From Azospirillaceae bacterium (GTDB taxonomy: Bacteria; Pseudomonadota; Alphaproteobacteria; Azospirillales; Azospirillaceae), in assembly GCA_031291675.1 (NCBI GenBank), contig JARLIO010000021.1, forward strand, positions 1 through 64,000: a stretch of 64,000 bases of DNA. Direction: 5' to 3'. A model generated the notes under the pieces. That model was not told where the DNA came from, did no database searches, and worked only from the letters and a program-made list of their open reading frames with translations. Numbering within the stretch: position 1 is the first letter of the stretch; every line of letters begins with the position of its first letter. The position numbers were made by a program, and so were the translations under genes. Shown in pieces: positions 15,279 to 36,590 of the stretch.

Positions 15279-15312
15279 TGTTTCCGCCTCCGTTTACCGG
15301 TGCCCCGCCGCG

Positions 15313-15714: not shown

Positions 15715-15906
15715 GATAGCGTCCTGTGAAGGCGATCCCGACCGCAACCAGCGCGGCCAGCGTACATTACTGCAAAACCGGGGCCACATCCACAAACTTC
15801 GCCTTGACTTCGTTCTTGATCCGCCCGGAAACTGCCATCAACGCGCCGACGGACCGAACCCGGTCCCTGTTGAACCCCGGCACGCCACCAGCGGACCCTC
15901 ACGATC

Positions 15907-16565: not shown

Positions 16566-16574
16566 CGGAGACCG

Positions 16575-16859
16575 GTGTTGGACCTGACGACTTATCTGCG
16601 CTTCCTTCTGGCCCTGGCATTCGTGCTGGCCTTGTTGCTGCTGGCCGCGCTTGGGTTGCGCCGTCTGGGCTATGGCACCGCGGCGCCGCGGCGCGGCCGG
16701 TTGCGCCGTCTGGGCATCGTCGAAGTCACCGCACTGGATACCAAGCGGCGTCTGGTTCTGATCCGTCGCGACGGGGTCGAACATCTGTTATTGCTGGGTG
16801 GACCCAACGACCAGGTCATCGAAGCCAATATTCCGGCTGCACCAGAGGCTGCGAACTGA
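16575..16859 (+). CDS. fliO: Flagellar export assembly factor FliO
   Basis: 94-aa protein with one N-terminal membrane helix (LRFLLALAFVLALLLLAALG) followed by a basic stretch. A small domain then follows with the FliO pattern LGIVEVTALDTKRRLVLIRRDGVEHLLLLGG. FliO helps assemble the FliPQR channel. Initiates at GTG (16575). Its TGA overlaps the fliP ATG by one base (TGATG), so the two are coupled. Confidence 0.85.
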   Translation: MLDLTTYLRFLLALAFVLALLLLAALGLRRLGYGTAAPRRGRLRRLGIVEVTALDTKRRLVLIRRDGVEHLLLLGGPNDQVIEANIPAAPEAAN

Positions 16860-17653
16860 TGACGTCACGCCACCCCGCCCGACGCTTTTCCCGCGCCGGC
16901 GCTCTCGTCACGGCGCTCGGTTTTCTGCTGTTGCTCGGCACCCTGGTCCTGGCCGGTGGGCCCGCGGCCCTGGCCCAAAGCGTCACCCTGAATCTGGGCG
17001 GTGGTGGTACTTCGGCATCCGGTCGCATCATCCAGATGCTCGCCCTGCTGACCGTGTTGTCACTGGCACCGTCGATCCTGGTGATGGTGACCTCTTTCAC
17101 CCGGATCATCATCGTCCTCAGTTTTCTGCGCACCGCGATGGGCACCCAACAGGCGCCGCCCAACACCGTGCTCGTCAGTCTCGCGCTGTTTCTGACGGCC
17201 TTTATCATGGCGCCGGTGTTCGAGCAGTCCTACAATGACGGGATCCAGCCGCTGATGGCCAACCAGATCGACGAGATCGAGGCGTTCAAGCGCGCCGTGG
17301 CGCCCTTGCAGGATTTCATGCTGCATCACACCCGCGAGATGGATCTGAAGCTGTTCGTCGACCTGGCCAAGATCGGACCGATCGCCGATCCGGCCGATAC
17401 GCCGCTGCAAGTGGTGATCCCCGCCTTCATGATTTCCGAGCTGCGCCGCGCCTTCGAGATCGGCTTTCTGTTGTTTCTGCCTTTCATGATCATCGACTTC
17501 GTGGTCGCGTCGATCCTGATGTCGATGGGCATGATGATGCTGCCGCCAACCTCGATCGCCCTGCCCTTCAAGATCATTTTCTTCGTTCTCGTTGACGGCT
17601 GGTACCTGGTCGCCGGAACGCTGGTGCAAAGTTTCGGCCCCCCGGCAAACTGA
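16859..17653 (+). CDS. fliP: Flagellar export gate protein FliP
   Basis: 264-aa channel subunit. An N-terminal signal sequence (cleavage likely after ...AALAQS) precedes four membrane segments. Conserved FliP stretches include SILVMVTSFTRIIIVLSFLR, GTQQAPPNTVLVSLALFLT, IPAFMISELRRAFEIGFL and VASILMSMGMMMLPP. Gene order fliO-fliP is standard. No fliN or fliM lies upstream here, which suggests that the C-ring genes are elsewhere. Confidence 0.96.
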   Translation: MTSRHPARRFSRAGALVTALGFLLLLGTLVLAGGPAALAQSVTLNLGGGGTSASGRIIQMLALLTVLSLAPSILVMVTSFTRIIIVLSFLRTAMGTQQAPPNTVLVSLALFLTAFIMAPVFEQSYNDGIQPLMANQIDEIEAFKRAVAPLQDFMLHHTREMDLKLFVDLAKIGPIADPADTPLQVVIPAFMISELRRAFEIGFLLFLPFMIIDFVVASILMSMGMMMLPPTSIALPFKIIFFVLVDGWYLVAGTLVQSFGPPAN

Positions 17654-17996
17654 AACCCCGCCCCGCAACCGCGGCTCACGCCGAGTCGCAACCGGGGACC
17701 GCCACCACGATCCCCGGAATCGGCAGGCTGACAGCCTCGAACGCGCGATATCACGATTGAGGCTGTGCGGTCACGCCAATCACAACCGGAAGAGATGCCC
17801 GGCGGTCGCACGAAATATTCCCACCCGCTTCACGTCTCCGGCCCGGCGACCTCCCCCCCCCGACAAAGCCCCATCAGCATTCCGGCGCTTCACCGACAAT
17901 CGCTTTTCGCGATATCCTTGGCCGCGAAGGCATGCCTATAATGAATAATGTTCATGCGTCCTGCTGTTAACCGTGATCATGATTTCTGGCTCCAGA
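17654..17996. other. Spacer after fliP with a possible promoter
   Basis: About 340 bp. Nothing is recognised in the first 280 bp. A TATAAT hexamer at 17937-17942 is a good -10 candidate for the next gene, but no matching TTGACA-like box sits 16-18 bp upstream. No terminator with a T tract follows fliP. Confidence 0.35.
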
Positions 17997-19148
17997 ATGG
18001 CTCAGAGACCAGCTTATGACGCCGAAAAAGCGACATTGACGCTGACGGTGCACGATCAGAACCAGTTCTGGTTCGTTCTGTCGGATGGCGCATTGCCGCA
18101 GGGGGCGGAACGGCCCCGGTCGGTTGCTGCGATGCGTGAGGCCGCCAACCGCCAGGCGGTCCTGCTGGTGCGGTCGGTGTTTCTGCACAATCAAGCGGTG
18201 ATCGCGACGGGCGACAAGGCCAAGGGGCCGATTCGCCTCGAATTCCAGCCACATCTGCTGGTCAGCCGCAAGCGCGACGGCACACCCGGCCTGCGGATCG
18301 ACACCACCCTGGCCCTTGGCCCGGGCGCCGGCAAGCCGCGCCCCGCCGGTGATCCGGATCCGGAAGACACCGTGATCCCCGATATCGGCGCGTTGATTGC
18401 CGGGCTGGAGCAAACCACCCGATCGCTGGGGATGACCGATCTGTTGATCGCCGATCCGACCGGCTTGACCAGTGCCGACGAGGCCGAACGCGACGACCTG
18501 CTCCACGCCATTGTCGCCACCAAAGACCATGTCCTGACCGAACTCGCGGGCCTTGGCGCCGTTCTGGCGCAGCGCAACACCGGATCGCGCGAGACATGGC
18601 TGACCTGCATCTCAGGTGCGGTCTCGGCGACGCTCGAGGCGATGATCGCCTTCGACGATTTCGCCGATCATGTCCGCGAGGACAAGATCAACGAATTGAA
18701 TGCGCTGCGCCACGCGATCGAAGGTTATTTCTACCGGCTGGATCCCACGACCGACGCGGCCGCCTGCACCGCGTTTTCCCGGGGGATCAATACGCTGATT
18801 CTGGAAGAACACCGCGGCAGCCTGACCCGGAACAAGGTACACATCGAATCGCGCATCGAAGGAACCTACAGCGATATTATCGCAACACTGCAGAGGGTCC
18901 TGGCCACAAACAGCACGATCTCTTTCCTGCCCCGGCCTTTTCTTAGCCCGGCGGAAGGATTTTATACAAAATTCGTGTTCAATATGCTGCACATGGTGAT
19001 GGCGGTCCAGAATGGCGGCCTGTCGATCCGGCTTGAGACAAAGGCGCACAACCAGCTTCATCGCGACTTTCACGGCTGGAACCAGATTCGCCCCCCTTGC
19101 GTGCATATCACGGATCGCCGTAGTTATGAGGCGCTGCAACGGCGCTGA
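17997..19148 (+). CDS. Uncharacterised protein, 383 aa
   Basis: Function not recognised. It is soluble, with no signal peptide or membrane helix. The first 100 residues look beta-rich (KATLTLTVHDQNQFWFVLSD, PIRLEFQPHLLVSRK), the middle is helical and acidic (IPDIGALIAGLEQTTRSLG, EAERDDLLHAIVATKDHVL), and the C-terminal part is helical (FNMLHMVMAVQNGGLSIRL). GTG at 17973 and ATG at 17979 are alternative starts; none has a good ribosome binding site. It lies between fliP and a methyltransferase and could be a motility accessory protein, but that is inference from position only. Confidence 0.65.
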   Translation: MAQRPAYDAEKATLTLTVHDQNQFWFVLSDGALPQGAERPRSVAAMREAANRQAVLLVRSVFLHNQAVIATGDKAKGPIRLEFQPHLLVSRKRDGTPGLRIDTTLALGPGAGKPRPAGDPDPEDTVIPDIGALIAGLEQTTRSLGMTDLLIADPTGLTSADEAERDDLLHAIVATKDHVLTELAGLGAVLAQRNTGSRETWLTCISGAVSATLEAMIAFDDFADHVREDKINELNALRHAIEGYFYRLDPTTDAAACTAFSRGINTLILEEHRGSLTRNKVHIESRIEGTYSDIIATLQRVLATNSTISFLPRPFLSPAEGFYTKFVFNMLHMVMAVQNGGLSIRLETKAHNQLHRDFHGWNQIRPPCVHITDRRSYEALQRR

Positions 19149-19189
19149 TGCCGGCCGATCGGCCCCCCTGATCCCGGGAGAAGCCCGCG

Positions 19190-19951
19190 ATGACTCTTGC
19201 GACCAATCCGTCGCCCATTCCTTGCAAGATCTGCGGACGGGAGTCACCGCTCTTCTCCGTCCATGATTTCACCAAAAGCTGTCTCGAGGCCAATGGCACA
19301 AAGCTTCCGCTCTCCGGCATTCCAATTTATTATCGACAATGTCGCCAATGCGGGTTCATTTTTACCGATGCCTTCGATGATTGGTCGAAGGATGAGTTTT
19401 CAACACACATCTACAACAGCGACTATGCGATCGTCGATCCGGACGTGACCGGACTTCGCCCGAAAAACAACGCGGTGATGATCAACGGCGCCTTCGGAAA
19501 GCAGAAAGACGCGATCCGGGTTCTTGATTACGGTGGTGGCAACGGTGATTTGGCCGTGGCGCTGCGCTCTTGTGGCTTCAGCGTCGAAACCTATGACCCA
19601 TTTTCGCAATTTTCCGAGAAGCCGAGCGGCGCCTTCAATCTCATCACCGCCTTCGAAGTCTTCGAACATTCCCTGTCGCCGCACGACCTTCTCGACGACA
19701 TTTCCTCATACCACCCGGTCGACGCGCTCGTGCTGTTTTCGACGCTCGTGACCGAGGCCGACCCCGTCAATATCGCGCGTAATTCCTGGTACGTCGCACC
19801 CCGAAACGGCCACGTTTCGATCTACGCACGGTCATCGCTGAATTTATTATTTTCACAACATGGCTATCAATGGCTCTCGGCATCCGGGGACACGCATATC
19901 CATATCGCCTTCATGAGGCTTCCGGCGTTCGCGTCGCATTTGTTCGCTTGA
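19190..19951 (+). CDS. Zinc-ribbon class I SAM-dependent methyltransferase
   Basis: 253 aa. The N-terminal zinc ribbon has two Cys pairs (PCKICGRESP and YRQCRQCGFIF). A Rossmann methyltransferase follows with motif I VLDYGGGNGDLAVALRSCGF about residues 110-130, then LITAFEVFEHSLSPHDLLDD. This arrangement occurs in methyltransferases of carbohydrate and secondary metabolism, often encoded in surface-polysaccharide loci. GGGAGAAG lies 7 bp before the ATG. Codon choice is slightly less GC-biased than its neighbours, and it is 41 bp after the preceding unknown gene. Substrate unknown. Confidence 0.75.
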   Translation: MTLATNPSPIPCKICGRESPLFSVHDFTKSCLEANGTKLPLSGIPIYYRQCRQCGFIFTDAFDDWSKDEFSTHIYNSDYAIVDPDVTGLRPKNNAVMINGAFGKQKDAIRVLDYGGGNGDLAVALRSCGFSVETYDPFSQFSEKPSGAFNLITAFEVFEHSLSPHDLLDDISSYHPVDALVLFSTLVTEADPVNIARNSWYVAPRNGHVSIYARSSLNLLFSQHGYQWLSASGDTHIHIAFMRLPAFASHLFA

Positions 19952-20190
19952 GCGCTGCCGCGGACCGGGCGGCACGAATGGGGGGGCGGTCATGTGTCGA
20001 TCGTCCGCCGGTTCCCATGGCAACGACGGCCCGACGACGCTATATAGAGCAGACGGCGATCGCGAAACGCGATGCGGGCCGGGTTTTCATTGCGGCCCGG
20101 CTCCAGACGCCGCCACGGGTTGACATTCGCTGTTGACGTCAGCGGCGGTGTCACGAAACCCGCGTGCCCACGATTATTTCCAGGAGCAAG

Positions 20191-20571
20191 ATGAACAGTT
20201 TTAAGAATGCCGGTTTTGCCGATCGCTTGACCGCCGCCGCCGCCGCCCGAAAAGCCCTGATCGAAAAATTCCGCGCCCAGCCCGACGCCAACGACCCGGC
20301 GGTGATCGCACGAGAGGCCGAGCGTCAAGCCATTCGCGCCGCCCGCGAAGAACGCGCCGCCAAGGCACAATTGGCGCGCGCGGCACAGTTGCGCGCCGCC
20401 CAGGAGGCAAAGGCGGCACAGGAGGCCGAGCGTCTCGCCCGTGAGGCCGAGGAAGCCCTCCAAGCCGAACTGCGCTACGCCGAACAGGTCGCGGCTGACG
20501 CGGCCCATGAAGCCGAGCGCAAGGCCGCGCGTGATGCCCGCTATGCGGCGCGCAAGGCGGCCCGCCGCTAA
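20191..20571 (+). CDS. DUF6481-type Ala/Arg/Glu-rich helical protein
   Basis: 126 aa. The N-terminus MNSFKNAGFADRLTAAAAAR is followed by a long charged helix built almost entirely of Ala, Glu, Arg and Lys (REERAAKAQLARAAQLRAAQ and similar) and a basic C-terminus ARDARYAARKAARR. This matches the small alphaproteobacterial family I know as DUF6481, function unknown; a cold-shock or nucleic-acid-associated role has no support from sequence alone. The ATG at 20191 follows CAGGAG; an in-frame ATG at 20164 is less likely. Ends directly before a three-hairpin structure. Confidence 0.7.
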   Translation: MNSFKNAGFADRLTAAAAARKALIEKFRAQPDANDPAVIAREAERQAIRAAREERAAKAQLARAAQLRAAQEAKAAQEAERLAREAEEALQAELRYAEQVAADAAHEAERKAARDARYAARKAARR

Positions 20572-20646
20572 AGCTGTTTTTGGTCCAACGGGATCAGAAA
20601 CAGCGCTGAGAGTTTCGACTCTAACAGACCTTGGCCGGTCTGTTAG
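20572..20646. repeat. Three tandem hairpins including a dispersed-repeat copy
   Basis: Directly after the DUF6481-type stop codon come three stems. First, AGCTGTTT...AAACAGC (20572-20604) has the central TCCAACG loop and is about 28/33 identical to the repeat at 53595. Second, AGAGT-TTCG-ACTCT has a TTCG tetraloop. Third, CTAACAGACC (20621-20630) / GGTCTGTTAG (20637-20646) is a 10-bp perfect stem. They lie between convergent genes and probably terminate transcription in both directions. Confidence 0.65.
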
Positions 20647-20734
20647 GCCGTAACCCTTGCTCATGCTTTCATTTTGTGTTCCGGCCCCGACGCCGTGCGG
20701 CGACGGGAGCCGAACGCCGGATCGGCGGCCGGGC

Positions 20735-21949
<1,215 letters not shown>

Positions 21950-26451: not shown

Positions 26452-27210
26452 TCAATTCAGATCGATTGTCGGTGCCTTGACCGCAAAGGGCTGATCACAC
26501 TCGATCGTCATGGCGCCGCTGCTATGCACCGTGGTGCCCTGGCCGCCCGAGAGGCTCAGCCCGCCGCCCGCGGCCAGCGTCATATTGCCGCCTGACGTCA
26601 AAGCCAAATCCGCCGGTGTCGCGACCGCAACCGACCCCTGGATCTGAGCGGTCAAGGTCCCGCCACTGGTCAGTGTCGTGTTGCCGCCGGGCTGGATCAC
26701 CAGCGTGAAGCCAGCCGTCACCACGGTAATCTGCGGTGCCGGGGCCGCGGCAATCTGCCAGTTCCCGTCTGCCGCCAACGGCGCCAGATCCTGATGGGCC
26801 CCCGACCCGATCCGCAAATAGGCGCCACCGGGATGGTTTGCCTCGATCGAACCATCGGGGGCGATTGTGGCATAGGCCCCGGTGGCGTGGCGATAGATCG
26901 CCCGATCCTGCTCGGCAAACGACATCTGGCTGCCCTGTGGCGAGACGAAACCCAGCACCAGGGGCCGGGTGTGGTCGATGAAGCCGCAGACGGCGAGCAG
27001 CGACCGGGCCCCGGCCGCCGCCAGACCACCACTGGCCCCCTCGCTGACCGGGGCCTTGACGCTCGGTACCGCCCAAATGCCGCCATCGGAATGGGCCATG
27101 CCCGATGACACCGGGACTTCGGCGGCGTGCCAGCCGTCGTCGGTGAACACCAGATCCAGCGTGCGCCGATCCGGGTGAACCGCCACCACCTGTGCGATGC
27201 GGAGCATCAT
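26452..27210 (-). CDS. Tail spike / baseplate assembly protein V-like
   Basis: 252 aa. The N-terminal OB-fold-like part (MLRIAQVVAVHPDRRTLDLV, ALLAVCGFIDHTRPLVLGFV without catalytic residues) is followed from about residue 150 by a repetitive, Gly/Thr/Ser-rich beta-helical tail (QPGGNTTLTSGGTLTAQI, ALTSGGNMTLAAGGGLSLSG). This is the build of gpV/gp5-type membrane-puncturing spikes of contractile tails. Its ATG overlaps the stop of the upstream hub gene. It is the last gene of the module; the wedge genes (W, J, I) that normally follow a V gene are absent and the ugp operon abuts instead. Confidence 0.75.
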   Translation of the reverse strand: MMLRIAQVVAVHPDRRTLDLVFTDDGWHAAEVPVSSGMAHSDGGIWAVPSVKAPVSEGASGGLAAAGARSLLAVCGFIDHTRPLVLGFVSPQGSQMSFAEQDRAIYRHATGAYATIAPDGSIEANHPGGAYLRIGSGAHQDLAPLAADGNWQIAAAPAPQITVVTAGFTLVIQPGGNTTLTSGGTLTAQIQGSVAVATPADLALTSGGNMTLAAGGGLSLSGGQGTTVHSSGAMTIECDQPFAVKAPTIDLN

Positions 27211-28640
27211 CGGGAATAGGGTCCCCTCATTCCTTCCAGCAGATAAGGACTGCCGGGCATCTTGTTGCGTGTCAGGAATCCGGTGCCGCGGATCAGGATC
27301 GCGGTACTGATCCAGCCCTGCAGCGGCGACAGGCTGTGATTGACCCGCGTCATGTAAGCGCTGGCGACGACCCCGCCGCGGGTCAGGCGCAGATATTGCC
27401 CGGGCTTGAGCGCTTCGGAGCCTTTCAGGACGGCGCGCCCCTCCTCGAACACCGCATTGTCGCGGTTCATGTCGCGCAACTGGGTTGCCCGCTTCTTGTG
27501 CCATGGGGGAAACTGGTTCAACGCCGAGACCCGGCGGTCTGCCGGTTGACTGGCGGGCATGACACTGACCGCGGGCGGCAACAACCGGCTGAAGGCCCGC
27601 ATCTCACGGGTGCCGTACAAGGCCTGCAGGCTGTTGGCATAGTCCAGATCCAGCGGATAGGCATCGTTCAGTGCGGCATTGCCGGCCCACCAGGCGGTAT
27701 CGGGCGCCGAATCGCCGGGCGGGACCCAGTAGAAATTGGCGACCCGGTCATCGCCATGCCAAAGCCTGAGCCTGACAACGTCACTGTCGCTGATGTCGAT
27801 GGTTCCCGGGTCGGTCGCCCCGTCAATCACGAAACTGTCATCCTGCGCGGATCGAAAGGGCGCCGGGCGGAAGCGGACCACGGGCCCGGTTTCGCTATCT
27901 TCGATGAACCACTCGTTCCACGGCCGATCGGCAAAAGCCGTCGCGATGTCAAACAGGCTGCCGGTCGCGCTGGCCAGTCGGATATTGCTGACCAGACCCT
28001 CGCTGACCTGGGCGTCGACGGTAAAGGGCTTGATGCCGCTGCCGCCGACCGCGGCCAGCGCCTGGACCTTGGGGTTGACGACATTTTCAATCAGCAGCGA
28101 CATGAATTGGCTCACGGGCCAAGTCACGGTGGGCATGCCGGTCGTCGCCTGGAGCTGGAAGGTCTCAAGATAGGGCTGTTCCAGCACAGTCATCAGTTGC
28201 GAGACGATGCGGTGGATCTGCATCAGCTTGCCAGCGTCATGACCGGTGATCGACACGATGCGCCGCGGCGCGCCATTGTTCCCCGCCTCCTCGCTGCGCT
28301 CGACGCGCGAGACAAAGCCGCGCATGATCAAGGGCAATTTCTGGCTGGCATACAAATGCGGCTCGCGTGCCGCCCTGATTTCGATGACGTCCATGGCCTC
28401 GACACCGGCATAGACGCTGTCCGCGAGGTCCGGACGGATCTTGTCCGCGAAACTCACGGTGAAGGCGCCACAGGGTTCATCGATGCTCTTGGTGATCGTG
28501 ACCGATCCGCCGGATCCCAGATAGGGCGTCAGGTCGACAAGCCGCGCCGCCTTGGCATAGCGCCGGGCCACACCGTCCTCGCGGTCGACGGCCTTTACCA
28601 GCAAGATCTGACAGGTCGGCCTGTAAGTCGACACCGTCAT
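27207..28640 (-). CDS. Tail hub-like protein (gpD/gp27/Mu gp44 position)
   Basis: 477 aa, soluble. The start MTVSTYRPTCQILLVKAVDR and the LTPYLGSGGSVTITKSIDEP segment look like the first domain of tail-hub proteins. A WPVSQFMSLLIENVVNP region, GSLFDIATAFADRPWNEWFI and a late ALKPGQYLRLTRGGVVASAY domain fit the repeated beta domains of hubs. It is placed between the 999-aa protein and the spike gene, the order tape measure-hub-spike seen in Mu-like tails. Both ends overlap neighbours by 4 bp. Assignment rests on order plus weak resemblance. Confidence 0.65.
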   Translation of the reverse strand: MTVSTYRPTCQILLVKAVDREDGVARRYAKAARLVDLTPYLGSGGSVTITKSIDEPCGAFTVSFADKIRPDLADSVYAGVEAMDVIEIRAAREPHLYASQKLPLIMRGFVSRVERSEEAGNNGAPRRIVSITGHDAGKLMQIHRIVSQLMTVLEQPYLETFQLQATTGMPTVTWPVSQFMSLLIENVVNPKVQALAAVGGSGIKPFTVDAQVSEGLVSNIRLASATGSLFDIATAFADRPWNEWFIEDSETGPVVRFRPAPFRSAQDDSFVIDGATDPGTIDISDSDVVRLRLWHGDDRVANFYWVPPGDSAPDTAWWAGNAALNDAYPLDLDYANSLQALYGTREMRAFSRLLPPAVSVMPASQPADRRVSALNQFPPWHKKRATQLRDMNRDNAVFEEGRAVLKGSEALKPGQYLRLTRGGVVASAYMTRVNHSLSPLQGWISTAILIRGTGFLTRNKMPGSPYLLEGMRGPYSR

Positions 28641-31636
28641 GGCACGCCCCCCCAGGGACGTGCCCCATCAACCCGGGTCACCGGCAATGTCTCTTCGCCC
28701 AGACGCTCCCCGGCCTGGTTTTCGTGGATCACCCTCAGCGCCTGAATTCGATGTTCGACCGGGGCTGTGGGCTGTCGCCGGGGATCGTCACGCGGCAAGG
28801 GCGTCCCCATGGCGCGATCGGACGACGGCGTCGGCGCTCCGGGTAGAGACCAGCTTATTCCCGGTACCGGGAGCGGTCCGCGGAACCCGTCGACAAAGGC
28901 CCGGTCTGCCAACGGGAATGGGGACCCGCGCCTTGGCAACCCGGGGACCGGCACCGCGGGCGCGATCCCCGGACGGAACGGCCGCGACGCCGGCACGGTA
29001 TTATCGCGGCGGTCCGGGGCGGCGGTGATCGCCGACGGAACGGCGAGATCCGGAACGTTGCCTTGAGCGAAATTCCAACGCAGATCAGGCGACCGCAAAT
29101 CGAGCGCGTGAGCGCCCGGAGCCGTATTCCCGATCAGATCTCGCGTCCCGGACCCCGGGGCCAGGGGCGTGGCGAAGGCTTGGTTCGGGCGCCCGGCGCG
29201 GCTTGACGGCGCCGCCACGCCCGGGATGCGGCCCCGGTCGGCCTGTTTCGTCGTGTCTGCCCCCCTTCCCGCCCGGTTCGGATCCGATCGCCTCTGGTCG
29301 TCGGGGCGACCGCCTGCGGCAACGAAGCCGTCCAGGACAGGCTGCTGTTCTGGCGGCCGCACCGGACCCAGGAACGCCCGATCGCGGTGAAGGCCGGGTT
29401 GCCATCGCGACGGATCGCCCGGGACGGCAACCCCGGGAAAGCCACGATCTTCGCTCTCCTGCCCCGCCCCCACCCCGCGCGGAATCGGATCCGGAGCGTG
29501 CGGCCACCGCCCGGGCGGCGCCAACTGGGACAGGAGCGCGGGCACCGGGCTCGTCCCCATCACAACAGGCAAATCCGGGCCTCCCGCCCAAGGTTCACCC
29601 GCAGCAACGCCCGGCGAACGGGGCGCTCGATTCCGGCCTGGCGGCGCCAACACCGTTCTCGTCGGCTCAGTGACCGCGCGACCGGAGCCCTGTGCGATCG
29701 TCACCGGCCATTGATCCGTTGGCTGGATGATTCGAGCCGCTGCCGGTATTGCCGCGATCCGCCCCGCCGGTCCAGACACGACCGCGGCTCCATCGATCTC
29801 TTCACGATTGACCGTCCCGGCGGGGGTTTCCCGGTTCGCGGTCTCCGCAACCGCGAGACGGCGCGGCGACGCCAGGTCTCCGTCCGCTTCGGGGGCTCGC
29901 GTCACCGCCACCGCGCCCCCACCGCTCGGGTGCCGTGAAATCGAAAGCCCGGGACCGCCCGGCAACACCGCTGACATCGCCGTGACGCCGGGGTCATTCG
30001 TCACGGACGCGCCCCCTGCCGCGCTTCCCGCGGCGCCTTCCGCACCGGCCGCCGCCGAACCGGGGGACGAAAGCCCGGGCAAAATCGCCGTACCGGCGCC
30101 ATTCCCTGGCATCGCGCTGGCCGACCTCACCACCGTTCCCTCGCGAACCGCGGGGAGTGTTCCGGCAAATGACCCCGTTCGTTCGAGCCCCCGCAGTCGC
30201 GGGACGGCGGATGTCGCGGCCCAAGCCAATGTCCGCCGGTCCGCCGCGGTCTGGGGCCTCGGGACCGAAAAGTCCGGCGGCACGAGGGCGGCACTCCCGT
30301 CGGCCCGGGGCCGCGCCGCGGCGCTTGCGTGCCCGATGTCAGAACCACCCGAGCCGGCGGACAGCAACGCCGTTGTCACATCCCGGGCCTGTCGATCCGC
30401 CGAGGTCTGCGGTGTCGGGACGGAAGAATCCGGCGGCACGATACCGGCAGCCGCATCACCCCCGCGCCGTGCGCCGGAGCCTGAGCGCCCGATGTCAGAA
30501 CCGCCGAGGCCGGCAGATGCCAACGCCATCGCCCAATCCGGCGCCTGCCGATCCGCCACCTTCCGAGGTATCGGGACCGCCAAATCCGACCGCACGATGG
30601 CGGCACCGACGGCACCCGCAGACAAGGCCTCCGGCACCGATCGCGCGATGGCAAAACCGTCGAAACCCGGACGGGCCGCCGCCGGGGACATTGCCGGCAC
30701 GATCGGATCCCGGCTTCCTGTCGTTTTCGCGAGGGAGAAAACCATCGGCGCGCTTGTCGGGCTTGCCGCTACCGCGGCCGGGTGGGCCGGTATCGCGGGT
30801 TGCGAAACGATCAAGCGGCGTGGTGCACCCGGCTCCCGTGCCGCTGATGACACGAACCCCGGGTCGCCACTCGTGTCCATGGTCCCATCGCCAGGAAGCG
30901 ACACGACACCGCTCCGCGCGGATGCATCACCCCGTGGTTCGGGCGCCCGGACCGACGACGACGGCAGGGCCTCGGTGGGGCGCGAACCCGGCGATCCTGG
31001 ACGCTGCCCGGGGTTCGTCCCCGACGGCATCACGTCGCTTCGCCCCGCCCTTGCCTCGCGTCGAACGGCCCTGCCCCGCGCATCTGGCGCCGATGGAACG
31101 ATGTCAGGCGTAGCGCCCGGCCCCGGCGCTTCCCCCTCGCGCACCACCGAGGACTCCGCTCCCGTGGCTCCCGTTGCCCTTCGCGGCGCATCGAACAGCG
31201 GGATGGCGAGCCCCGCGGCGAGACGCCTTGAAGGCACCGGGATACGCCACACCAACGCAGCGCCCGATCTACCATCGCCCGGGGCAATCCCCGGGCCGTC
31301 GCCGAGCAAAAACCGGCCTGCGGCACCGATCCGGCGCGCCCGCAGCTCGGGATCGGGAAACCGCGCGACAGCCTGATCGTACCAGCGCAGAAAGTCTGGC
31401 GCACCGCTGTCGCGCACCGCGGCGGCGGTGGCACCACGCGTGATCCGCCGCAGGCGAAGAAACCGGTTCTGGATGACGCGGGTGTCATTGGCGATGCCAA
31501 CCAAGGCCGGTGTGTCGAGATCGAGTGTCGCAAAGGCCCGGTCGCCCTGGCCATCGCCGCGCACGGCGTCGCGGATCCGATCGAAACGTCGAACCACGGT
31601 TGAGGTCCCCCGTTCAGGGACAATTGTTTCGGTCAC
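28637..31636 (-). CDS. 999-aa Pro/Ala/Arg/Gly-rich repeat protein of the tail module
   Basis: Function unknown. Residues 1-135 look folded (TSTVVRRFDRIRDAVRGDGQ, RVIQNRFLRLRRITRGATAA, PELRARRIGAAGRFLLGDGP). The remainder is low-complexity and probably disordered. A 52-residue unit is repeated about three times near residues 338-470 (SADRQARDVTTALLSAG and SAGSGGSDIGHAS types). A short final segment (HRIQALRVIHENQAGERLGE) looks ordered again. No membrane helices or long coiled coils, unlike typical tape measures, though the gene occupies the tape-measure position. GTG start with AGGAG upstream; the stop overlaps the hub ATG. The antisense frames here are long because of composition. Confidence 0.7.
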   Translation of the reverse strand: MTETIVPERGTSTVVRRFDRIRDAVRGDGQGDRAFATLDLDTPALVGIANDTRVIQNRFLRLRRITRGATAAAVRDSGAPDFLRWYDQAVARFPDPELRARRIGAAGRFLLGDGPGIAPGDGRSGAALVWRIPVPSRRLAAGLAIPLFDAPRRATGATGAESSVVREGEAPGPGATPDIVPSAPDARGRAVRREARAGRSDVMPSGTNPGQRPGSPGSRPTEALPSSSVRAPEPRGDASARSGVVSLPGDGTMDTSGDPGFVSSAAREPGAPRRLIVSQPAIPAHPAAVAASPTSAPMVFSLAKTTGSRDPIVPAMSPAAARPGFDGFAIARSVPEALSAGAVGAAIVRSDLAVPIPRKVADRQAPDWAMALASAGLGGSDIGRSGSGARRGGDAAAGIVPPDSSVPTPQTSADRQARDVTTALLSAGSGGSDIGHASAAARPRADGSAALVPPDFSVPRPQTAADRRTLAWAATSAVPRLRGLERTGSFAGTLPAVREGTVVRSASAMPGNGAGTAILPGLSSPGSAAAGAEGAAGSAAGGASVTNDPGVTAMSAVLPGGPGLSISRHPSGGGAVAVTRAPEADGDLASPRRLAVAETANRETPAGTVNREEIDGAAVVSGPAGRIAAIPAAARIIQPTDQWPVTIAQGSGRAVTEPTRTVLAPPGRNRAPRSPGVAAGEPWAGGPDLPVVMGTSPVPALLSQLAPPGRWPHAPDPIPRGVGAGQESEDRGFPGVAVPGDPSRWQPGLHRDRAFLGPVRPPEQQPVLDGFVAAGGRPDDQRRSDPNRAGRGADTTKQADRGRIPGVAAPSSRAGRPNQAFATPLAPGSGTRDLIGNTAPGAHALDLRSPDLRWNFAQGNVPDLAVPSAITAAPDRRDNTVPASRPFRPGIAPAVPVPGLPRRGSPFPLADRAFVDGFRGPLPVPGISWSLPGAPTPSSDRAMGTPLPRDDPRRQPTAPVEHRIQALRVIHENQAGERLGEETLPVTRVDGARPWGGVP
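30235..30625 (-). repeat. 156-bp in-frame tandem repeat inside the 999-aa gene
   Basis: Three copies of a degenerate unit, with equivalent points at 30261, 30417 and 30573, are exactly 156 bp (52 codons) apart. The shared core on the plus strand reads like TCGGGACCG followed by TCCGGCGGCACG with substitutions. Because the period is a multiple of three, copy-number change would keep the reading frame. Confidence 0.7.
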
Positions 31637-31646
31637 CTTCGGCTCC

Positions 31647-32000
31647 TCAATAACGTTCCGCCGTCATCGTCTCCCAATCTTCGGGGCGGTTGCTGGCGGC
31701 CGCCGCTTCGGCCTCAGCCAACGCCGCGGCGAAATCGGGGTCGACGATCTCGGACCGCAACTCCGGGTCATCCCAGAACCGATGTGCCCAGTAATCGACG
31801 GCGATATCCTCAATCGTCAGCGACAGGAAGCGCGGATCATTCGGTGGCAGGTTGTAGCGGCGGCGAAAGGCGAACGCGATCGTCTCGCTGAGATCGAGTC
31901 CAAGGCGCCGAGCGTTACGTTGCAGTTGCGCTGCGAAACGAATCCTCCTGTTGTCGCAACCCCGCATGGACCTTCCAGAGGATCGCAAAGGCCTCGTCAT
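31647..32000 (-). CDS. Tail assembly chaperone, second frame
   Basis: 117 aa if started at the ATG at 32000. The last 85 residues (LDLSETIAFAFRRRYNLPPN, IEDIAVDYWAHRFWDDPELR) look like the downstream product of tail assembly chaperone pairs. It overlaps the preceding frame by 86 bp in a +1/-2 relation. In many tailed phages the second frame is reached by programmed ribosomal frameshifting, giving a fusion protein. Independent initiation at the internal ATG at 31967 (GGAAGG upstream) is also possible. The first residues in this frame (RPLRSSGRSMRGC) look non-native, favouring a shift or a later start. Confidence 0.6.
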   Translation of the reverse strand: MTRPLRSSGRSMRGCDNRRIRFAAQLQRNARRLGLDLSETIAFAFRRRYNLPPNDPRFLSLTIEDIAVDYWAHRFWDDPELRSEIVDPDFAAALAEAEAAAASNRPEDWETMTAERY

Positions 32001-32235
32001 CGAACGGATCGGCCTGATCGATCGACCAGCCGTCCGGGGCCTGGACCGTCAGCAGGGCCAACGTCGCCATGCAGCGGGCGCTGTGGACATAGTCGGCGAC
32101 GATCGGATCACTCAACGGACCGCCGAGAATGCGGCAGGTCTCGGCTTCGATGCGCAGCGTGTCACGGATCTGACGCTGCCGGAACACGAAGCGGCCGACG
32201 CCGTCGACGTCGACGGTAAAGGTCTTTGTCGTCAT
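31915..32235 (-). CDS. Tail assembly chaperone, first frame
   Basis: 106 aa, located immediately downstream of the tail tube gene (3 bp gap), where contractile-tail modules encode their assembly chaperone. The sequence FTVDVDGVGRFVFRQRQIRD, followed by RIEAETCRILGG and a helical middle, fits the small beta-plus-helix chaperone type. It ends at a TAA within the overlap with the second frame. Probably a non-structural helper that coats the tape-measure protein during tail assembly. Confidence 0.65.
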   Translation of the reverse strand: MTTKTFTVDVDGVGRFVFRQRQIRDTLRIEAETCRILGGPLSDPIVADYVHSARCMATLALLTVQAPDGWSIDQADPFDDEAFAILWKVHAGLRQQEDSFRSATAT

Positions 32236-32238
32236 GGC

Positions 32239-32724
32239 TTACAGTCCCGTCCCCTGAACATCGAGCGCCTTGAAGATCCCCTGTTGGACCGTGATCTTGT
32301 GTGCCGAGATCTCCAACTCGCCATTGTCATAGGAGCAGCTGACATATTTGCGGACCACATCGCCGCTATCCCGGGAATAGACGACCAGATCGAAGACATT
32401 GCCCTGCATCACGACATCGGCATTCTCCGGGGCAATCCCGACACCGCGCAGATTGCTGTTGAACAGCACCATGGTGTGCACGGCGATCTGATGCACCGCC
32501 TTGGTCGGGACATGCTCAAGGACGTGGATGTCGCCGACGCCGCTGACGCCTTCGAGGCCATAATGGTCGCTGGGGCGGATCGATTGGACCAGCCCGACCT
32601 GGGCGCCGCCGAATTCGACGACAATACGGTTGCCGGTATAGGTCTGGAGCAGCACAGCCTGGCTCGCGGCGTTGTTCTTGCCAATGCTGCCGGTGAAATT
32701 CGGGCTGAGGGGATCGGTGGCCAT
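32239..32724 (-). CDS. Tail tube protein
   Basis: 161 aa, beta-rich, no membrane segment. It directly follows the sheath gene, as tube genes do, and has a GGAGGTAA ribosome binding site suiting high expression. Segments such as VLLQTYTGNRIVVEFGGAQV, DIHVLEHVPTKAVHQIAVHT, FDLVVYSRDSGDVVRKYVSC and ELEISAHKITVQQGIF fit the tube fold built from two orthogonal sheets that forms hexameric rings. The family was assigned by order, size and fold appearance. Confidence 0.7.
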   Translation of the reverse strand: MATDPLSPNFTGSIGKNNAASQAVLLQTYTGNRIVVEFGGAQVGLVQSIRPSDHYGLEGVSGVGDIHVLEHVPTKAVHQIAVHTMVLFNSNLRGVGIAPENADVVMQGNVFDLVVYSRDSGDVVRKYVSCSYDNGELEISAHKITVQQGIFKALDVQGTGL

Positions 32725-32757
32725 GATGGTTTACCTCCAGGGTCAGGTATCGCGGGG

Positions 32758-34482
32758 TCAGGCGGTGGCGGTGCCGGAATAGGGCACCAGCGAAATCGTG
32801 ATCGGGATGAAGTTGACCGGGATCACCGGGCTGCACTGGAAGCTGACGCTCAGCACGTCGCCGTCGAGGCTGGCGGTAATCCCCTTGTAGGCCGGGTTGG
32901 TGGCATCACCGGCCAACACCGCCAGCCCGGCCGGCTCCGGCTTGGCCAGCAGGCGCAAGGTGCTTTCGGTGATCGCAATCGCCCGGGCCAGGGTCAGCGA
33001 CGTCGCCTTCTGGCCGCGCAGCACGTCCAGGGCGTCGCGCACCGACCGCGCGGTGTAATCGGTGGCGCGGCCAACGGAGACTTCGCAGCGGTAATAGTTG
33101 TTCGACGCCAGCCAGGTCGTCACCGAGCGCACCACCTTGTAGCCGGCAGCGGTGCTTTCCAGGCACAGCACCCCGGCCTGGATCAGCCGGTCGGTATCGG
33201 TCGGGTTGCGCGGGCTAACCTCCAGACCGCGCAGGGTCAGGGTCTTGTTGGTCATGGCGACGCCGGGATCGCTGCCGGCAAAGGCCGCCGCGACGCACAC
33301 CGCGGTGAAATAGGGCGGATACAGCACCAGGTTGGAATTGGCGTCGTAATCGTAGTAACCGGGCCAGCACAGCGCGGTACGATCGCTGTTGAGCGCCTTG
33401 GGCAGCGTCAGCACACTGGCCTGGGTGGTGCCGCTGGCCGGGCCGACAAAGGCCCGGCGTTCGCGCCGCCCCGTCGTGCTCATATAACTGCAATGAGCGT
33501 CGGCCATGGCCCAGATCGCCGGGGTCGGCGACAAGGGCACGATCCATTGGACATCAACGGTCTGCAGCGTGGTGAAAGCGTTGGACCAGTCCTGGGTCAG
33601 CACCGCGGGCGTGCTGCCCCCGGCCAGATAGGTAAAGGCCAGATTAGCCAGCCGGGCAAAGGATCCGGCCGGCCGGGTCGCGGTGACGAAGCTGCCCGAG
33701 GCGGCGCTGTTGAACCAGGTCAGGGCGGCTTCCAGATCGCCGGTGACGGTGAAGGCCGCGCTCTTGATGTCCTGGCCGGTGACCGCGTCCAGGCCGTTGA
33801 GCGCGACCAGATCCTCACTGCTGGCGACCAGGATCGCGCTCAGGTTGCCCAGCGTGTTGAGATAGTCGATGACCTGGCCATAGGTCGAATAGCTGTTGAG
33901 GTCGACGGTCGCCAGCACGGTGCCGACCGGCGCGGCGATGGTCAGTGCGGTGCCAGTGATGCTCAGGGTCGCGGTCGCAGCACTGCCGGTATATTGCAGG
34001 GTGAAGGCCTGCTGACCGATATCATCGCCGGAATAATAGCTGCTGCCCGACTGAACCGTGATCTTCTTGCCGGAATCGGTGCCGGTTTCGATCTTGACCT
34101 TGATCTGGTTGGTTTGCAGCCCGTAATCGGTGCCCTGAACCACCAGCGCCGCCGCACCATTGACATCGGCGAGGCTCAGCGACGACGCGGTCGCGCTGCC
34201 GACCCGGATGGCATAGACCGTCGACGGCGCGTTGGTGTCGTCGGAGGGCGCGAAGGCCTTCTGCACCGCGGTGCACAGATCACCGCTGATCAGGGTCGTC
34301 GCGGCCTCGGCCGCCGAACCGAAGCTCAACACGGTGTTGGGCTGGCCCCCCGCTGAAATGCCGAGCAGCGCCAGATAGCTGCCCGAGGTGTCGTTGGTCG
34401 GATTCATCGCGGTGTCGTCGATCTTCGACACCGTCGCCGGGGTCACCAGCAATTGACCATTGAAGAACAGGGTGGATGCCAT
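32758..34482 (-). CDS. Contractile tail sheath protein
   Basis: 574 aa. The C-terminal third has sheath-family landmarks: VAAAFAGSDPGVAMTNKTLT, RGLEVSPRNPTDTDRLIQAG and VLCLESTAAGYKVVRSVTTW, then a final domain GDVLSVSFQCSPVIPVNFIP followed by ITISLVPYSG. The N-terminal and middle parts include surface domains (SGSYLALLGISAGGQPNTVL, TVQSGSSYYSGDDIGQQAFT). A sheath implies a contractile (myovirus-like) tail. AGGAG lies 8 bp before the ATG. This is the most secure member of the module. Confidence 0.88.
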   Translation of the reverse strand: MASTLFFNGQLLVTPATVSKIDDTAMNPTNDTSGSYLALLGISAGGQPNTVLSFGSAAEAATTLISGDLCTAVQKAFAPSDDTNAPSTVYAIRVGSATASSLSLADVNGAAALVVQGTDYGLQTNQIKVKIETGTDSGKKITVQSGSSYYSGDDIGQQAFTLQYTGSAATATLSITGTALTIAAPVGTVLATVDLNSYSTYGQVIDYLNTLGNLSAILVASSEDLVALNGLDAVTGQDIKSAAFTVTGDLEAALTWFNSAASGSFVTATRPAGSFARLANLAFTYLAGGSTPAVLTQDWSNAFTTLQTVDVQWIVPLSPTPAIWAMADAHCSYMSTTGRRERRAFVGPASGTTQASVLTLPKALNSDRTALCWPGYYDYDANSNLVLYPPYFTAVCVAAAFAGSDPGVAMTNKTLTLRGLEVSPRNPTDTDRLIQAGVLCLESTAAGYKVVRSVTTWLASNNYYRCEVSVGRATDYTARSVRDALDVLRGQKATSLTLARAIAITESTLRLLAKPEPAGLAVLAGDATNPAYKGITASLDGDVLSVSFQCSPVIPVNFIPITISLVPYSGTATA

Positions 34483-34496
34483 CAGGGGAACTCCTG

Positions 34497-34766
34497 TCAG
34501 ACCGGCCGGACCGCGAAGGCGGCGAAGGCGGTGGTGAAGGCGGTTTCGGTGTCGACCAGGTGTTGGGCGGTCCGCGCGTCCTGGTAGAAGGCGGCGATCA
34601 GCTCGACCCGGTGATCGGTCTTGGACAGCCGGGTGCAGAATTCCTTGAGCGACAGCGGAAAGCGGTGCACAACGCCGGCCGCACCGCCGTCCGTGGTCGT
34701 GGCGCTTGCGGTCGTGGCCGCCGCGGGAAACGTCGCTCCGGCGGCGGGGACACTGTCATCAGGCAT
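34497..34766 (-). CDS. Small unknown protein of the tail module
   Basis: 89 aa between the terminator-like gene and the sheath gene. An Ala/Thr-rich N-terminal third (AAGATFPAAATTASATTTDG) is followed by a compact segment VVHRFPLSLKEFCTRLSKTD and VELIAAFYQDARTAQHLVDT. AAGGAG lies 7 bp upstream of the ATG at 34766, which decides this start over an in-frame ATG at 34883. Small proteins in this position occur in Mu-like tail modules, but no family was recognised. Confidence 0.6.
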   Translation of the reverse strand: MPDDSVPAAGATFPAAATTASATTTDGGAAGVVHRFPLSLKEFCTRLSKTDHRVELIAAFYQDARTAQHLVDTETAFTTAFAAFAVRPV

Positions 34767-34833
34767 GATACGGCTCCTTGATTGGCGGCAAGAACGGTCA
34801 AAGCGGCAGGCAAAGACCCTTGGTTCCGGCGGT

Positions 34834-35733
34834 TCAGCACCGGAGCGTGACAAAATCGCCGCCGATGCCGTTGGCAGCGACATCGACGGCGCTTATCCGT
34901 GGAACAGTCCCGGTGAGATAACGGGGGACAACGCAGGAAAAATGACCCTTTGTAAGGAATAATGGCGCATTTTTCTGGAATATTTCCTCCGAATCCTCTT
35001 GGGAAAATTCGATCAGTTTCAATCCAAAGGCATCGAATACGGGTTCATTGACCTGGATAACCCGCGCCAGTGCGCAGCGCAGCGCGATGCGTTCATCGGC
35101 GTTCAGCGCGGTTCCCGTGACGTTCAGGACCACCGCGCGCAGGGTGCCGCGGGCCTCGCCGACACCCGAGGCAACGGTCGTGTCGAGCGCGGCATTAGTT
35201 TCGAGAACGACATGATCGGCGCCGACAACGTCACCGACAGCCTGCGCCCAGGGCCGATCGGCGATCAGTTGGACCGTCACCACGGGCAACGGCACCGTGC
35301 TCTGAGCCCCATAGGGCGCCGTCAGGACGGGAACCCGGCCCGATTTCGGATGCAGCATCCGGCGCTGCACTTCGACGGCCAGCCCGGCGGCGATGCGATC
35401 GCGCAACAGGGTCTGGGGATCAATCGCGTCGCCGCGATACCGGGCTTCGGGGGTCGCGGCGAGGCTCGATCCCGTGGTCCAGGCCTGGCCGTCCCAGGTG
35501 AACGCCCGATAATAGTAGGTGACGCCATTGATCAGGCCATTGACATCAACGACCGGTACGACGGCGCCGCCATCGAACACGCGCTCGTCGACACAAACGG
35601 CGCCGGCATCGTCCGGCCCGGTGAATTGATCGGCGGTGCGCCGCAGGATCCGCCCGAACAGCGCCCCATCGGGGTGCTGGAGGATCAGACGCAGGGCGTT
35701 ACCACTGGCAAGGATTTCGATTGCAGTCATCAT
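34834..35733 (-). CDS. Tail terminator-like structural protein with an N-terminal FnIII-like part
   Basis: 299 aa. The first about 95 residues resemble a fibronectin-III-like beta domain (VVPVVDVNGLINGVTYYYRA, WDGQAWTTGSSLAATPEA). The rest (TLLRDRIAAGLAVEVQRRML, PLPVVTVQLIADRPWAQAVG, LRAVVLNVTGTALNADERIA) has the helix-then-sheet look of tail terminator/completion proteins. Position at the upstream end of the tail genes, before the sheath, supports that. The fusion of a surface-type domain to a terminator-like domain is odd. Assignment is mostly positional. Confidence 0.5.
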   Translation of the reverse strand: MMTAIEILASGNALRLILQHPDGALFGRILRRTADQFTGPDDAGAVCVDERVFDGGAVVPVVDVNGLINGVTYYYRAFTWDGQAWTTGSSLAATPEARYRGDAIDPQTLLRDRIAAGLAVEVQRRMLHPKSGRVPVLTAPYGAQSTVPLPVVTVQLIADRPWAQAVGDVVGADHVVLETNAALDTTVASGVGEARGTLRAVVLNVTGTALNADERIALRCALARVIQVNEPVFDAFGLKLIEFSQEDSEEIFQKNAPLFLTKGHFSCVVPRYLTGTVPRISAVDVAANGIGGDFVTLRC

Positions 35734-35789
35734 GACGACAAGCTGCCGTCACGACTTGTGCCAGGGAAGCGGCTATTTTGAGCAGGGTG

Positions 35790-36590
35790 TCAGGCCGCGT
35801 ACAATCCGGCGGCGCGAAAACGCCGGCGCACCCGATCCACCGCGGTGGCATCGGCCTGCCGCGGCGCCGGTGCGCCGCCCGGGCACAAGGGACCGGCCTG
35901 AGGCTCTCTGACGTCGGACACGGTCCGGATCTCAACGCGCTCGACGTCATCAAGAGACTGGGCGAAGGCAAGCCGCTGCGCCACCGCGTCGTCGTCATCG
36001 TTGATGCCGGGGATCACAACATAGCGCAGCCACAGGGCCGCCGGGCTGTCGCCCAGCAAGCGCGAAAAACGCCCGGTATCGATCATCGTGGCATCGGAAG
36101 CATCGTCATGACACGCACCGGTGATATCGAGCACGACGAGGTCGGTCAGGCGCAACAGGCTGCGGGCCGCAAACAGGTTACCAATGCCCTGGGTGTTGAG
36201 CGCGGTCGACAGGCCAAGATCGCGACACTGGCGGAACAGCTGCGCCACGAAGCCGGGCTGGCGCAGGGGTTCGCCGCCGGCCACCGTCACGCCGCCCCCG
36301 GACAGCGTCATGAATTCCCGGAAGGTCCGGATCTGCCCGATCACCGTGGGCACCGTCACCGCCCGGCTGCAGAAACAGGGATCCGTGGCGGCACAAACAC
36401 AATCCGGGCAGCGCAGCCGGCACCCCTGAAGATAGACGGTGAAGCGGACACCCGGTCCCTGATTCAACGTCCGGGGCTCCAGCGCCGCGACATGTCCGAT
36501 CGGCGCCACCGCTCCGCGGTCCGCCGCAGCGTTCGCTATGATCGTGCCTTGCCGCATCCGCGTCATTTTCCTGCCGAAGCCGAACCCCAT
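35790..36590 (-). CDS. Radical SAM protein, glycyl-radical-enzyme activase-like
   Basis: 266 aa. The radical-SAM cluster motif Cx3Cx2C is complete in LQGCRLRCPDCVC, followed by extra cysteines in DPCFCSRAV. The activase-type SAM-binding GGE region is present as MTLSGGGVTVAGGEPLRQPG, as in pyruvate formate-lyase activating enzyme, with later VLDITGACHDDA and VVIPGIND segments. No glycyl radical enzyme gene is nearby. It ends 57 bp before the tail module begins and is co-oriented, so it may be co-transcribed. Start at 36590 or the ATG at 36566; neither has an ideal ribosome binding site. Confidence 0.75.
   Translation of the reverse strand: MGFGFGRKMTRMRQGTIIANAAADRGAVAPIGHVAALEPRTLNQGPGVRFTVYLQGCRLRCPDCVCAATDPCFCSRAVTVPTVIGQIRTFREFMTLSGGGVTVAGGEPLRQPGFVAQLFRQCRDLGLSTALNTQGIGNLFAARSLLRLTDLVVLDITGACHDDASDATMIDTGRFSRLLGDSPAALWLRYVVIPGINDDDDAVAQRLAFAQSLDDVERVEIRTVSDVREPQAGPLCPGGAPAPRQADATAVDRVRRRFRAAGLYAA

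Follow-up and report, generated by a model that had tools for sequence, protein, structure and literature searches.

The stretch analysed here, positions 1 to 64,000 of contig JARLIO010000021.1 from the genome of an Azospirillaceae bacterium (GCA_031291675.1), is referred to below as the window (64,000 nucleotides). Nine open reading frames of a phage-type tail locus lie on its minus strand, running from 35755 to 26452, and all are at the positions first stated, apart from the spike start (Table 1). In PHROGs, the sheath and the tube have strong matches and the hub and the spike weaker tail matches, confirming that the contractile-tail-like module first noticed by a sequence-only reading of the window is real; Pfam recognises almost none of the nine frames. 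The sheath is 48–53% identical to those of Pseudomonas phages Touem01, Dolphis, and Jeremy, Bordetella phage PHB04, and Aeromonas phage ST4. Together with Morganella phage Mecenats66, Yersinia phage fHe-Yen8-01, and Enterobacter phage phiT5282EW, these form what we call the PHB04-type group, and the nearest named relatives of the locus (PHB04, Dolphis, Touem01, and Mecenats66) are contractile phages of 86–96 kb. By tblastn, eight of the nine frames match PHB04, Touem01, and Dolphis collinearly, and all nine match Azospirillum sp. TSO22-1 collinearly, with 43–57% identity over the matched stretches (for the 999-aa frame, its ends only). As judged from the sequences, this collinearity is far beyond chance. 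The gene order is that of PHB04-type myophages, in which it runs on into the baseplate, W, J, and I genes, and not specifically that of Mu-type tails, as had been suggested.

Table 1. Features of the tail locus in the window, with the lexA region and the short repeats
Feature	Position	Strand	Evidence
Late-gene start element GTCGTGACGGCA	35744..35755	-	Sequence; same element at this genome's other phage-derived loci and in related phages
Tail-terminator/head-tail-adaptor-like protein, 299 aa	34834..35733	-	Counterparts PHB04 gp014, Dolphis gp15
128-aa frame	34497..34883	-	C-terminal ~53 aa match PHB04 gp013 (E 1e-10) and TSO22-1 (E 6e-14)
Tail sheath	32758..34482	-	phrog_279, E 7e-67; 57% identity to TSO22-1, 53% to PHB04 and Touem01
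Tail tube	32239..32724	-	phrog_985, E 1e-32; 54% identity to PHB04
Tail assembly chaperone, frame 1 (role by position)	31915..32235	-	44% identity to PHB04 at gp010, E 2e-21
Tail assembly chaperone, frame 2, overlapping (role by position)	31647..32000	-	44% identity to PHB04, E 7e-26
999-aa protein, tape-measure position	28637..31636	-	Conserved ends, low-complexity middle
Baseplate hub	27207..28640	-	phrog_1015, E 2e-6; 31% identity to PHB04, E 1e-65; 43% to TSO22-1, E 9e-124
Central spike, 252 aa	26452..27210	-	36% identity to PHB04, E 2e-29; 44% to TSO22-1, E 7e-65
lexA region beside baseplate operon	C71 stretch 2893-3678 and 5167
Short repeats	Window 53530-53676, 54742-54906; C71 stretch 11844-12096; stretch L034 9400-9550; stretch L021 8009-8172

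The operon is preceded by a 12-base element, GTCGTGACGGCA, which is shared upstream of late units in this genome and in related phages. The first tail gene opens with an ATG placed 22 nt from the element's first base, and no Shine–Dalgarno sequence intervenes. Its 299-aa product is 39% identical to PHB04 (E 2e-50) and 43% to TSO22-1 (E 4e-65) by tblastn; a structure prediction from a two-row alignment was uninformative (mean pLDDT 31.7) and was not used. The true start of the 128-aa frame is probably downstream of the called one, the second chaperone frame also matches a tail assembly chaperone family (phrog_25000, E 0.02), and the spike most likely starts at the ATG at 27210, overlapping the hub stop, rather than at 27504. 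The sequence-only reading had counted ten tail frames, of which these nine stand, being collinear with the relatives. The tenth (35790-36590, minus strand) encodes a radical-SAM/4Fe-4S protein (Pfam Fer4_12, E 9e-11); it lies upstream of the start element, which separates it from the tail genes, and its sole match in the five relative loci searched is 30 aa long (PHB04, E 0.007). Therefore, it is not a tail gene, and we ruled it out as a part of the device. Its PHROG matches are QueE-like and anaerobic-RNR-activase-like, and it adjoins the tail operon outside the phage unit. Host genes border the module on both sides, as had been claimed, with a sugar-type ABC transporter ATPase gene on one and a histidine-kinase gene on the other.

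The absence of wedge, fibre, capsid, and terminase genes noted at this locus is correct for the window but does not hold for the genome. Searching the whole assembly (5.87 Mb in 99 contigs, 97.7% complete) revealed phage-type genes at seven loci on seven contigs, i.e. C70, which carries the window locus including the sheath, and C66, C22, C19, C71, C34, and C88. The phage gene set is dispersed over the host genome and comprises about 29 genes in roughly 27 kb, six of which (the C66 terminase pair and four neighbours) were assigned partly by position. Open genes are present for the head and neck (terminase, portal, prohead protease, scaffold, major capsid protein (MCP), two neck proteins, and the terminator-like protein), for the tail (sheath, tube, chaperones, a remodelled protein in the tape-measure position, hub, spike, and PAAR tip), and for the baseplate and fibre (tube initiator, W, J, I, and a collar fibre that runs off its contig).

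Contig C71 carries a minus-strand run of a 138-aa protein (C71_138), tube initiator, W, J, and I near lexA and comEC, and its Baseplate_J domain (C71:6378-7139) is the only match in the genome. On C22, the PHB04 MCP matches 832-2277 (E 5e-128) and the portal lies at 4250-5764 (E 3e-187), with the protease and a scaffold-like gene between them; the first bases of the contig are a run of C, and the operon sits between a MucR gene and an FMN-binding-domain gene. The Dolphis terminase matches C66:110333-112261 (E 9e-180) in a gene 60% identical to PHB04 gp055, upstream of which are a gene in the TerS position, two genes that we call ZnR1 and ZnR2, a gene without a Pfam match, and a divergent XRE-type regulator. 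C19 (3,560 bases) holds an arginase-family gene, gp017 (PHB04 gp017 matches 1294-2064, E 3e-46), gp016, and the collar fibre, truncated by the contig end. The PAAR tip protein is encoded on C34 and has 58% identity to Dolphis gp24 (Pfam PAAR_motif 25.2 bits against a cut-off of 27), and C88 encodes a 108-aa protein (C88_108) that matches the C-terminus of the 999-aa protein at 63% identity over its last 56 aa. Host-type neighbours were classified by Pfam at six loci, on C70, C71, C22, C19, C66, and C88. Within the pieces the gene order is the phage order with three exceptions: the fibre is directly behind gp016 on C19, C22 has the portal directly in front of the protease, and the run on C71 begins with a scaffold paralogue.

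A contiguous PHB04-type genome was not encountered, as the sheath (C70), J (C71), MCP and portal (C22), TerL (C66), and gp017 (C19) each have a single match genome-wide. The separate baseplate and fibre genes that had been proposed for a genome-wide search were thus located, W, J, and I on C71 and the collar fibre on C19. Of the two possibilities raised earlier, a domesticated minimal contractile device confined to the window is ruled out by the wedge, capsid, and terminase genes elsewhere in the genome, together with the tube initiator, fibre, neck, portal, and protease genes. The other, that the locus is one part of a split locus, is borne out by these complementary genes of the same phage type in the same genome.

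Two observations concern the surroundings of these loci. On the same strand as the C71 baseplate operon, lexA lies ~1.5 kb downstream of it; a gene that looks by eye like a response regulator stands between the two, and a link of the baseplate operon to the SOS response is possible. GPW_gp25 has two matches in the genome, the second of which (C66:50873-51148, plus strand) has no neighbours of the phage group. It was rejected as a second baseplate, since 16 + 45 proteins from the window, C71, C22, and the phages found no match on C66:43000-60000 at E 0.01; it is perhaps a type VI secretion baseplate gene.

The start element recurs at most of these loci. Its pattern, GTCGTGAYGGCA, was read off four units, i.e. 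the portal (C22:5775), the 299-aa gene (C70), C71_138 (C71), and gp017 (C19:1246, with T for C), and has 17 matches genome-wide, compared with three for a reversed-pattern control and 3.7 expected from a second-order Markov model of the examined genome stretches. Eight of the 17 precede phage-type units, two each on C22 and C19 and one each on C70, C71, C34, and C88; four of these are there by construction, while those at C22:3119, C19:2756, C34, and C88 emerged afterwards, and the C34 and C88 loci were detected because of their matches. Six of the seven loci carry a copy, and the terminase operon on C66 has only a version with two mismatches, before ZnR1. The ATG of the portal lies at +22 without a Shine–Dalgarno sequence, as in the 299-aa gene, and C88_108 has a GTG at +22; the ATGs of gp017 (+42) and PAAR (+43) follow GGAGG and GGAGGA, respectively.

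We also scanned stretches of six named phages (phiT5282EW and Jeremy were excluded), TSO22-1, the alphaproteobacterial genome G401, and eight IMG/VR contigs, allowing one mismatch and hence some chance matches, and taking as the start the first ATG that opens a frame of at least 60 codons, which can depart from the annotation. Among the 40 rows (39 distinct sites), the ATG is 22 or 23 nt from the element's first base in 18, all of them without a Shine–Dalgarno match; in 15, the first ATG is at a different distance (six with a Shine–Dalgarno match), and seven have no ATG in range. The annotated ATG of PHB04 gp010, unlike the start picked by this rule, lies 39 nt after the element behind AAAGGAG. 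From these sequences, we infer that the element is a late promoter and that transcripts in the +22 group begin at or near the ATG.

Of the remaining GTCGTGAYGGCA matches, those on C31, C53, C79, and C84 and at C70:73113 lie in or next to unrelated-looking genes and were treated as chance. One on C30 (C30:36001-44000 stretch, 4962-5952, minus strand) is upstream of a 281-aa hydrolase-like protein of lower GC (58%), with a GHSWGG motif and an N-terminal NPYHVPAG stretch by eye and no Pfam or PHROG match, which may be cargo or an unrelated gene. Another, at C43:144781 (C43:140001-155000 stretch, 4781-6584), is followed by a 194-aa protein, membrane-type by eye, and then by a patatin-like protein, possibly a lysis or cargo unit; a decayed-looking second copy of this C43 leader is found on C41 (stretch position 5633), and a further match lies at C43:111524.

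At the head of the terminase operon, ZnR1 and ZnR2 were named from their CxxC-rich, zinc-ribbon-like sequences, and neither has a PHROG match. A search with ZnR1 against 50,697 phage records gave nine matches at E up to 0.1, each of them in the PHB04-type group, and TSO22-1 has relatives of both ZnR1 (E 4e-32) and ZnR2 (E 7e-7). Inverted GTGGG...CCCAC sequences lie between the XRE-type gene and the operon. This arrangement suggests a regulatory chain from the repressor through a ZnR activator to the late elements.

The pieces are largely intact. All but one of the about 29 frames are complete, the exception being the fibre that runs off its contig, and the breaks fall between genes. On a codon score trained on 22 host genes (range 0.21–0.65), 18 of 25 virion genes fall inside the host range, and the coding frame outscores each of its five alternatives in all 25. 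In 18 proteins, this genome keeps 888 of 1044 columns that are invariant in the other reference phages (0.85), compared with 0.87 in G401, 0.82 in TSO22-1 for the genes present, and 0.69–0.97 in the named phages, where 0.69 is Mecenats66, depressed by a terminase cut at the stretch edge. The open frames, codon use, and conserved residues agree with the earlier suggestion of retention over decay.

A near-complete virion set, single-copy in the genes tested, spread over seven loci, six with the start element, is best explained by a phage domesticated for its particle. We therefore consider it probable that the window contains the tail operon of a domesticated, gene-transfer-agent-like contractile phage. 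This phage belongs to the PHB04/Dolphis/Mecenats66 type and has its genes at no fewer than seven loci. Particles, packaging of host DNA, and transfer are what we infer for it, as follows. The XRE-type regulator on C66 would repress the operon of CxxC-rich proteins and terminase; once relieved, ZnR1 would activate the late elements, so that all loci fire together, and heads and contractile tails would assemble. Since the element is not contained in any one stretch, a headful-type terminase would then package host DNA into the heads, and the cell would lyse and release particles that inject DNA into kin. According to the cited part of PMC9503643, headful packaging has been shown for Mecenats66, which groups with Dolphis and PHB04, and this would suit the packaging of host DNA. 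A domesticated phage would also fit the outcome of a search for the PHB04 primase, which gave no match in the genome, although the search had no working positive control and G401 was likewise unmatched (in 100 of the 104.5 kb of its contig).

The protein in the tape-measure position is remodelled. Compared with TSO22-1, only residues 14–111 and 937–996 of the 999-aa frame are kept, and residues 101–900 are of low complexity with a weak codon signal (the middle scores near zero). The middle nevertheless contains no stops versus 7.4 expected, was stop-free in three of 3000 Markov simulations, and has 4–12 stops in the other five frames. The gene has an internal tandem repeat (30237-30453 / 30393-30608), and Pro+Gly make up 25% of the protein compared with 14–18% in the phages. 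Proteins in this position are 929–1058 aa long in six phages and mutually mostly alignable, and that of TSO22-1 has 675 aa with a transglycosylase-like stretch. The Mecenats66 protein has 996 aa and its contractile tail measures 142 nm (stated in the cited portion of PMC9503643); if protein length alone sets the tail, a tail of similar length would be expected here.

The C-terminal domains of the scaffold and of the tape-measure protein each occur twice in the genome. C71_138 and the C22 scaffold have 51 aa in common at 65% identity, and C71_138 matches a gene between protease and capsid in three phages (E 8e-6, 6e-11, and 1e-7). As part of PMC5644958 describes it, CpmB of SaPI1 is a short protein that binds the capsid via a C-terminal motif common with the phage scaffold and redirects capsid size. 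The likeness to C71_138, a short protein with the C-terminal part of the scaffold, is one of idea, compared by description, with capsid binding of its domain only supposed. The duplicated domains suggest size control, and we tentatively put forward a fuller version of the domesticated-phage reading that has well below an even chance of being right: a contractile gene transfer agent (GTA) in at least seven loci, with a 12-base late element, leaderless or near-leaderless transcripts, a phage-specific zinc-ribbon activator, and size control that it evolved itself. C71_138, expressed from a late element of its own, would compete with the scaffold and give small heads, like CpmB in SaPI1; C88_108, with the tape-measure C-terminus, would adjust or cap the tail; and domestication would have restricted the particle to carrying host DNA by the headful.

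Several findings weigh against a domesticated particle. The evidence comes from one genome in 99 contigs, and the C19 and C22 loci are close to contig ends, one of which cuts the fibre. Seven of the 25 virion genes score below the host codon range (the 128-aa frame, second chaperone, 999-aa gene, scaffold, C71_138, PAAR, and C88), the scaffold having been analysed as a 279-aa frame where the likely start gives about 227 aa; ZnR1 and ZnR2 also score below it, and ZnR2 fails to beat its other frames. The 999-aa protein is without the transglycosylase-like stretch of TSO22-1 and most of the recognisable sequence. In the stretches searched, which cover part of the genome, no counterpart of gp018, gp019, or gp034 turned up, and lysis genes were not identified, a PF11860 search being empty in this genome and likewise in the control genomes. 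The start element is ancestral, and finding it here is not by itself proof that it is used today. The MCP was found in one of 82 family genomes (this one, and none of the 81 others), and a strong portal match in two of 385 class genomes (this genome and G401), so long vertical inheritance lacks support; five further class genomes have portal matches at 26–29% identity (E 5e-16 to 6e-8; seven of 385 in total). Finally, the branches of this genome in the portal (0.73) and sheath (0.61) trees exceed twice the tree medians, although unflagged, and the closest relative varies from gene to gene.

The main rival is that these pieces are a scattered relic, i.e. a PHB04-type prophage broken by chromosomal rearrangements whose pieces have not yet decayed and which makes no particle. 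It stays alive because the set is known from a single genome and the lysis genes are missing, and we regard it as possible, though clearly less probable than domestication. The lack of a second genome with the same pieces and the remodelled tape-measure protein would fit it, the decayed-looking C43-leader copy on C41 indicates that element-linked sequences can rot in this genome, and dispersed repeats able to drive rearrangement exist. However, random breaks in a gene-dense late region would be expected to cut genes, whereas here they fall between complete frames, and six structural functions present once each, start elements at six loci, and 85% of invariant columns kept also speak against a relic. 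Repeats were set aside as the cause of dispersal, since they are absent at some of the breaks between pieces. In the genome stretches examined, the short repeats form dispersed families of about 40–165 bp.

The conflict between genes over the nearest relative raises a different alternative. In the gene trees, the genes of this genome are placed among phage genes with no long-branch flag, and TerL is nearest to PHB04, the MCP to G401 and IMG/VR contigs, the portal to G401, and the sheath to TSO22-1. G401, from another alphaproteobacterial family, carries PHB04-type phage genes contiguously (on its contig C62), with an MCP 64% and a portal 56% identical to those here, and IMG/VR holds closer capsid relatives on eight contigs (56–66% identity). 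DHGD01000001.1, a 4.6-kb contig of a metagenome-assembled genome labelled Syntrophomonas, also encodes a sheath (42% identity) and a tube (46%) of this type. More than one phage may therefore have contributed, and the doubled C-terminal domains could likewise reflect several related phages that entered separately over time rather than one element. We regard this as very improbable, because the MCP, portal, TerL, sheath, J, and gp017 are not redundant and the group looks mosaic anyway, the MCP and TerL trees grouping Touem01, ST4, PHB04, and Dolphis differently.

A third alternative, that only the tail half is used as a tailocin-like killer with the capsid genes as passengers, is suggested by TSO22-1, the only other of the 82 family genomes with the sheath. 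TSO22-1 has one contiguous tail and baseplate locus with the same tail and baseplate genes, fibre-type genes after them, endolysin and holin upstream, and the start element described above. No capsid homologue was found in it, so tail-only sets do occur in the family. From its gene content, it looks like an R-type tailocin of the PHB04 phage type. The locus (NZ_LGQZ01000072.1:71672-93384, stretch positions 6128-21435, continuing in the next stretch) also contains an N-acetylmuramidase and two ZnR genes, and the capsid homologue absent from that genome is of PHB04 type. R-type tailocins are headless and have no capsid, portal, or terminase genes; in contrast, all three are present here. Furthermore, the capsid, protease, portal, terminase, and neck genes match the tail genes in conservation, and separate start elements precede the capsid and neck operons, making a tail-only killer improbable. 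No complete prophage across the flanks was seen in close relatives, with no congeneric genome among the 82 searched and the flanks uncompared across genomes. As the only sheath-bearing relative in the family is TSO22-1, with its contiguous tail locus and no capsid homologue, such a prophage, which would have refuted a domesticated module, could hardly have appeared.

RcGTA is siphovirus-like, and the tail of the Rhodogtaviriformidae is non-contractile and without a sheath, whereas a sheath is present here. The element resembles PHB04-type phages in its virion genes, most of the order within pieces, start element, and ZnR1, and differs from them in that their genomes are contiguous (about 86–96 kb) and its genes lie at a minimum of seven loci, the PHB04 primase was not found, the tape measure is remodelled, and the scaffold and tape-measure C-termini are doubled. 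It is like RcGTA and the recognised GTAs in that phage-derived virion genes are endogenised over several host loci; unlike them, it encodes a contractile tail, belongs to another phage group, and has its capsid, neck, tail, and baseplate genes split from one another. According to the cited sections of PMC9662315, RcGTA genes occupy about 20 kb over five loci, the recognised GTAs form three families (Rhodogtaviriformidae, Bartogtaviriformidae, and Brachygtaviriformidae), and BaGTA and BhGTA particles have non-contractile tails or none; none with a contractile tail is described in those sections. Nor was one described in the titles and abstract starts that surfaced in our literature search, mostly of open-access papers.

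We call the element gene-transfer-agent-like, not a GTA, because it shows two of the six features in PMC9662315: its proteins derive from tailed phages, and its genes are endogenised in the host, as GTA genes often are at several loci. As for packaging of the whole element, the loci are on separate contigs among host genes and one headful is unlikely to hold them all; as for vertical inheritance, the single family genome with the MCP had no congeneric genome beside it in the comparison. The two other features on that list, particles filled mostly with random host DNA and delivery of DNA to other cells, are predicted for this element.

For Azospirillum itself, passages of PMC3899980 report particles with ~10 kb DNA, thought to be GTAs, in Azospirillum lipoferum strains and Azospirillum sp. 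B510, and state that scattered genes make them hard to find. A table in PMC6821227, as far as cited here, gives zeros for 13 Azospirillales genomes, which we take as no RcGTA-type cluster. If those A. lipoferum strains fall within the 81 family genomes without the capsid gene, the element described here differs from theirs. The domesticated element, if real, would be a new GTA lineage and would mean that myophages, too, have been domesticated as particles for host use, and that scanners for gene clusters miss such scattered elements. It shows where and how GTAs of Azospirillum may be sought, with the start element and ZnR1 as direct handles on their co-regulation.

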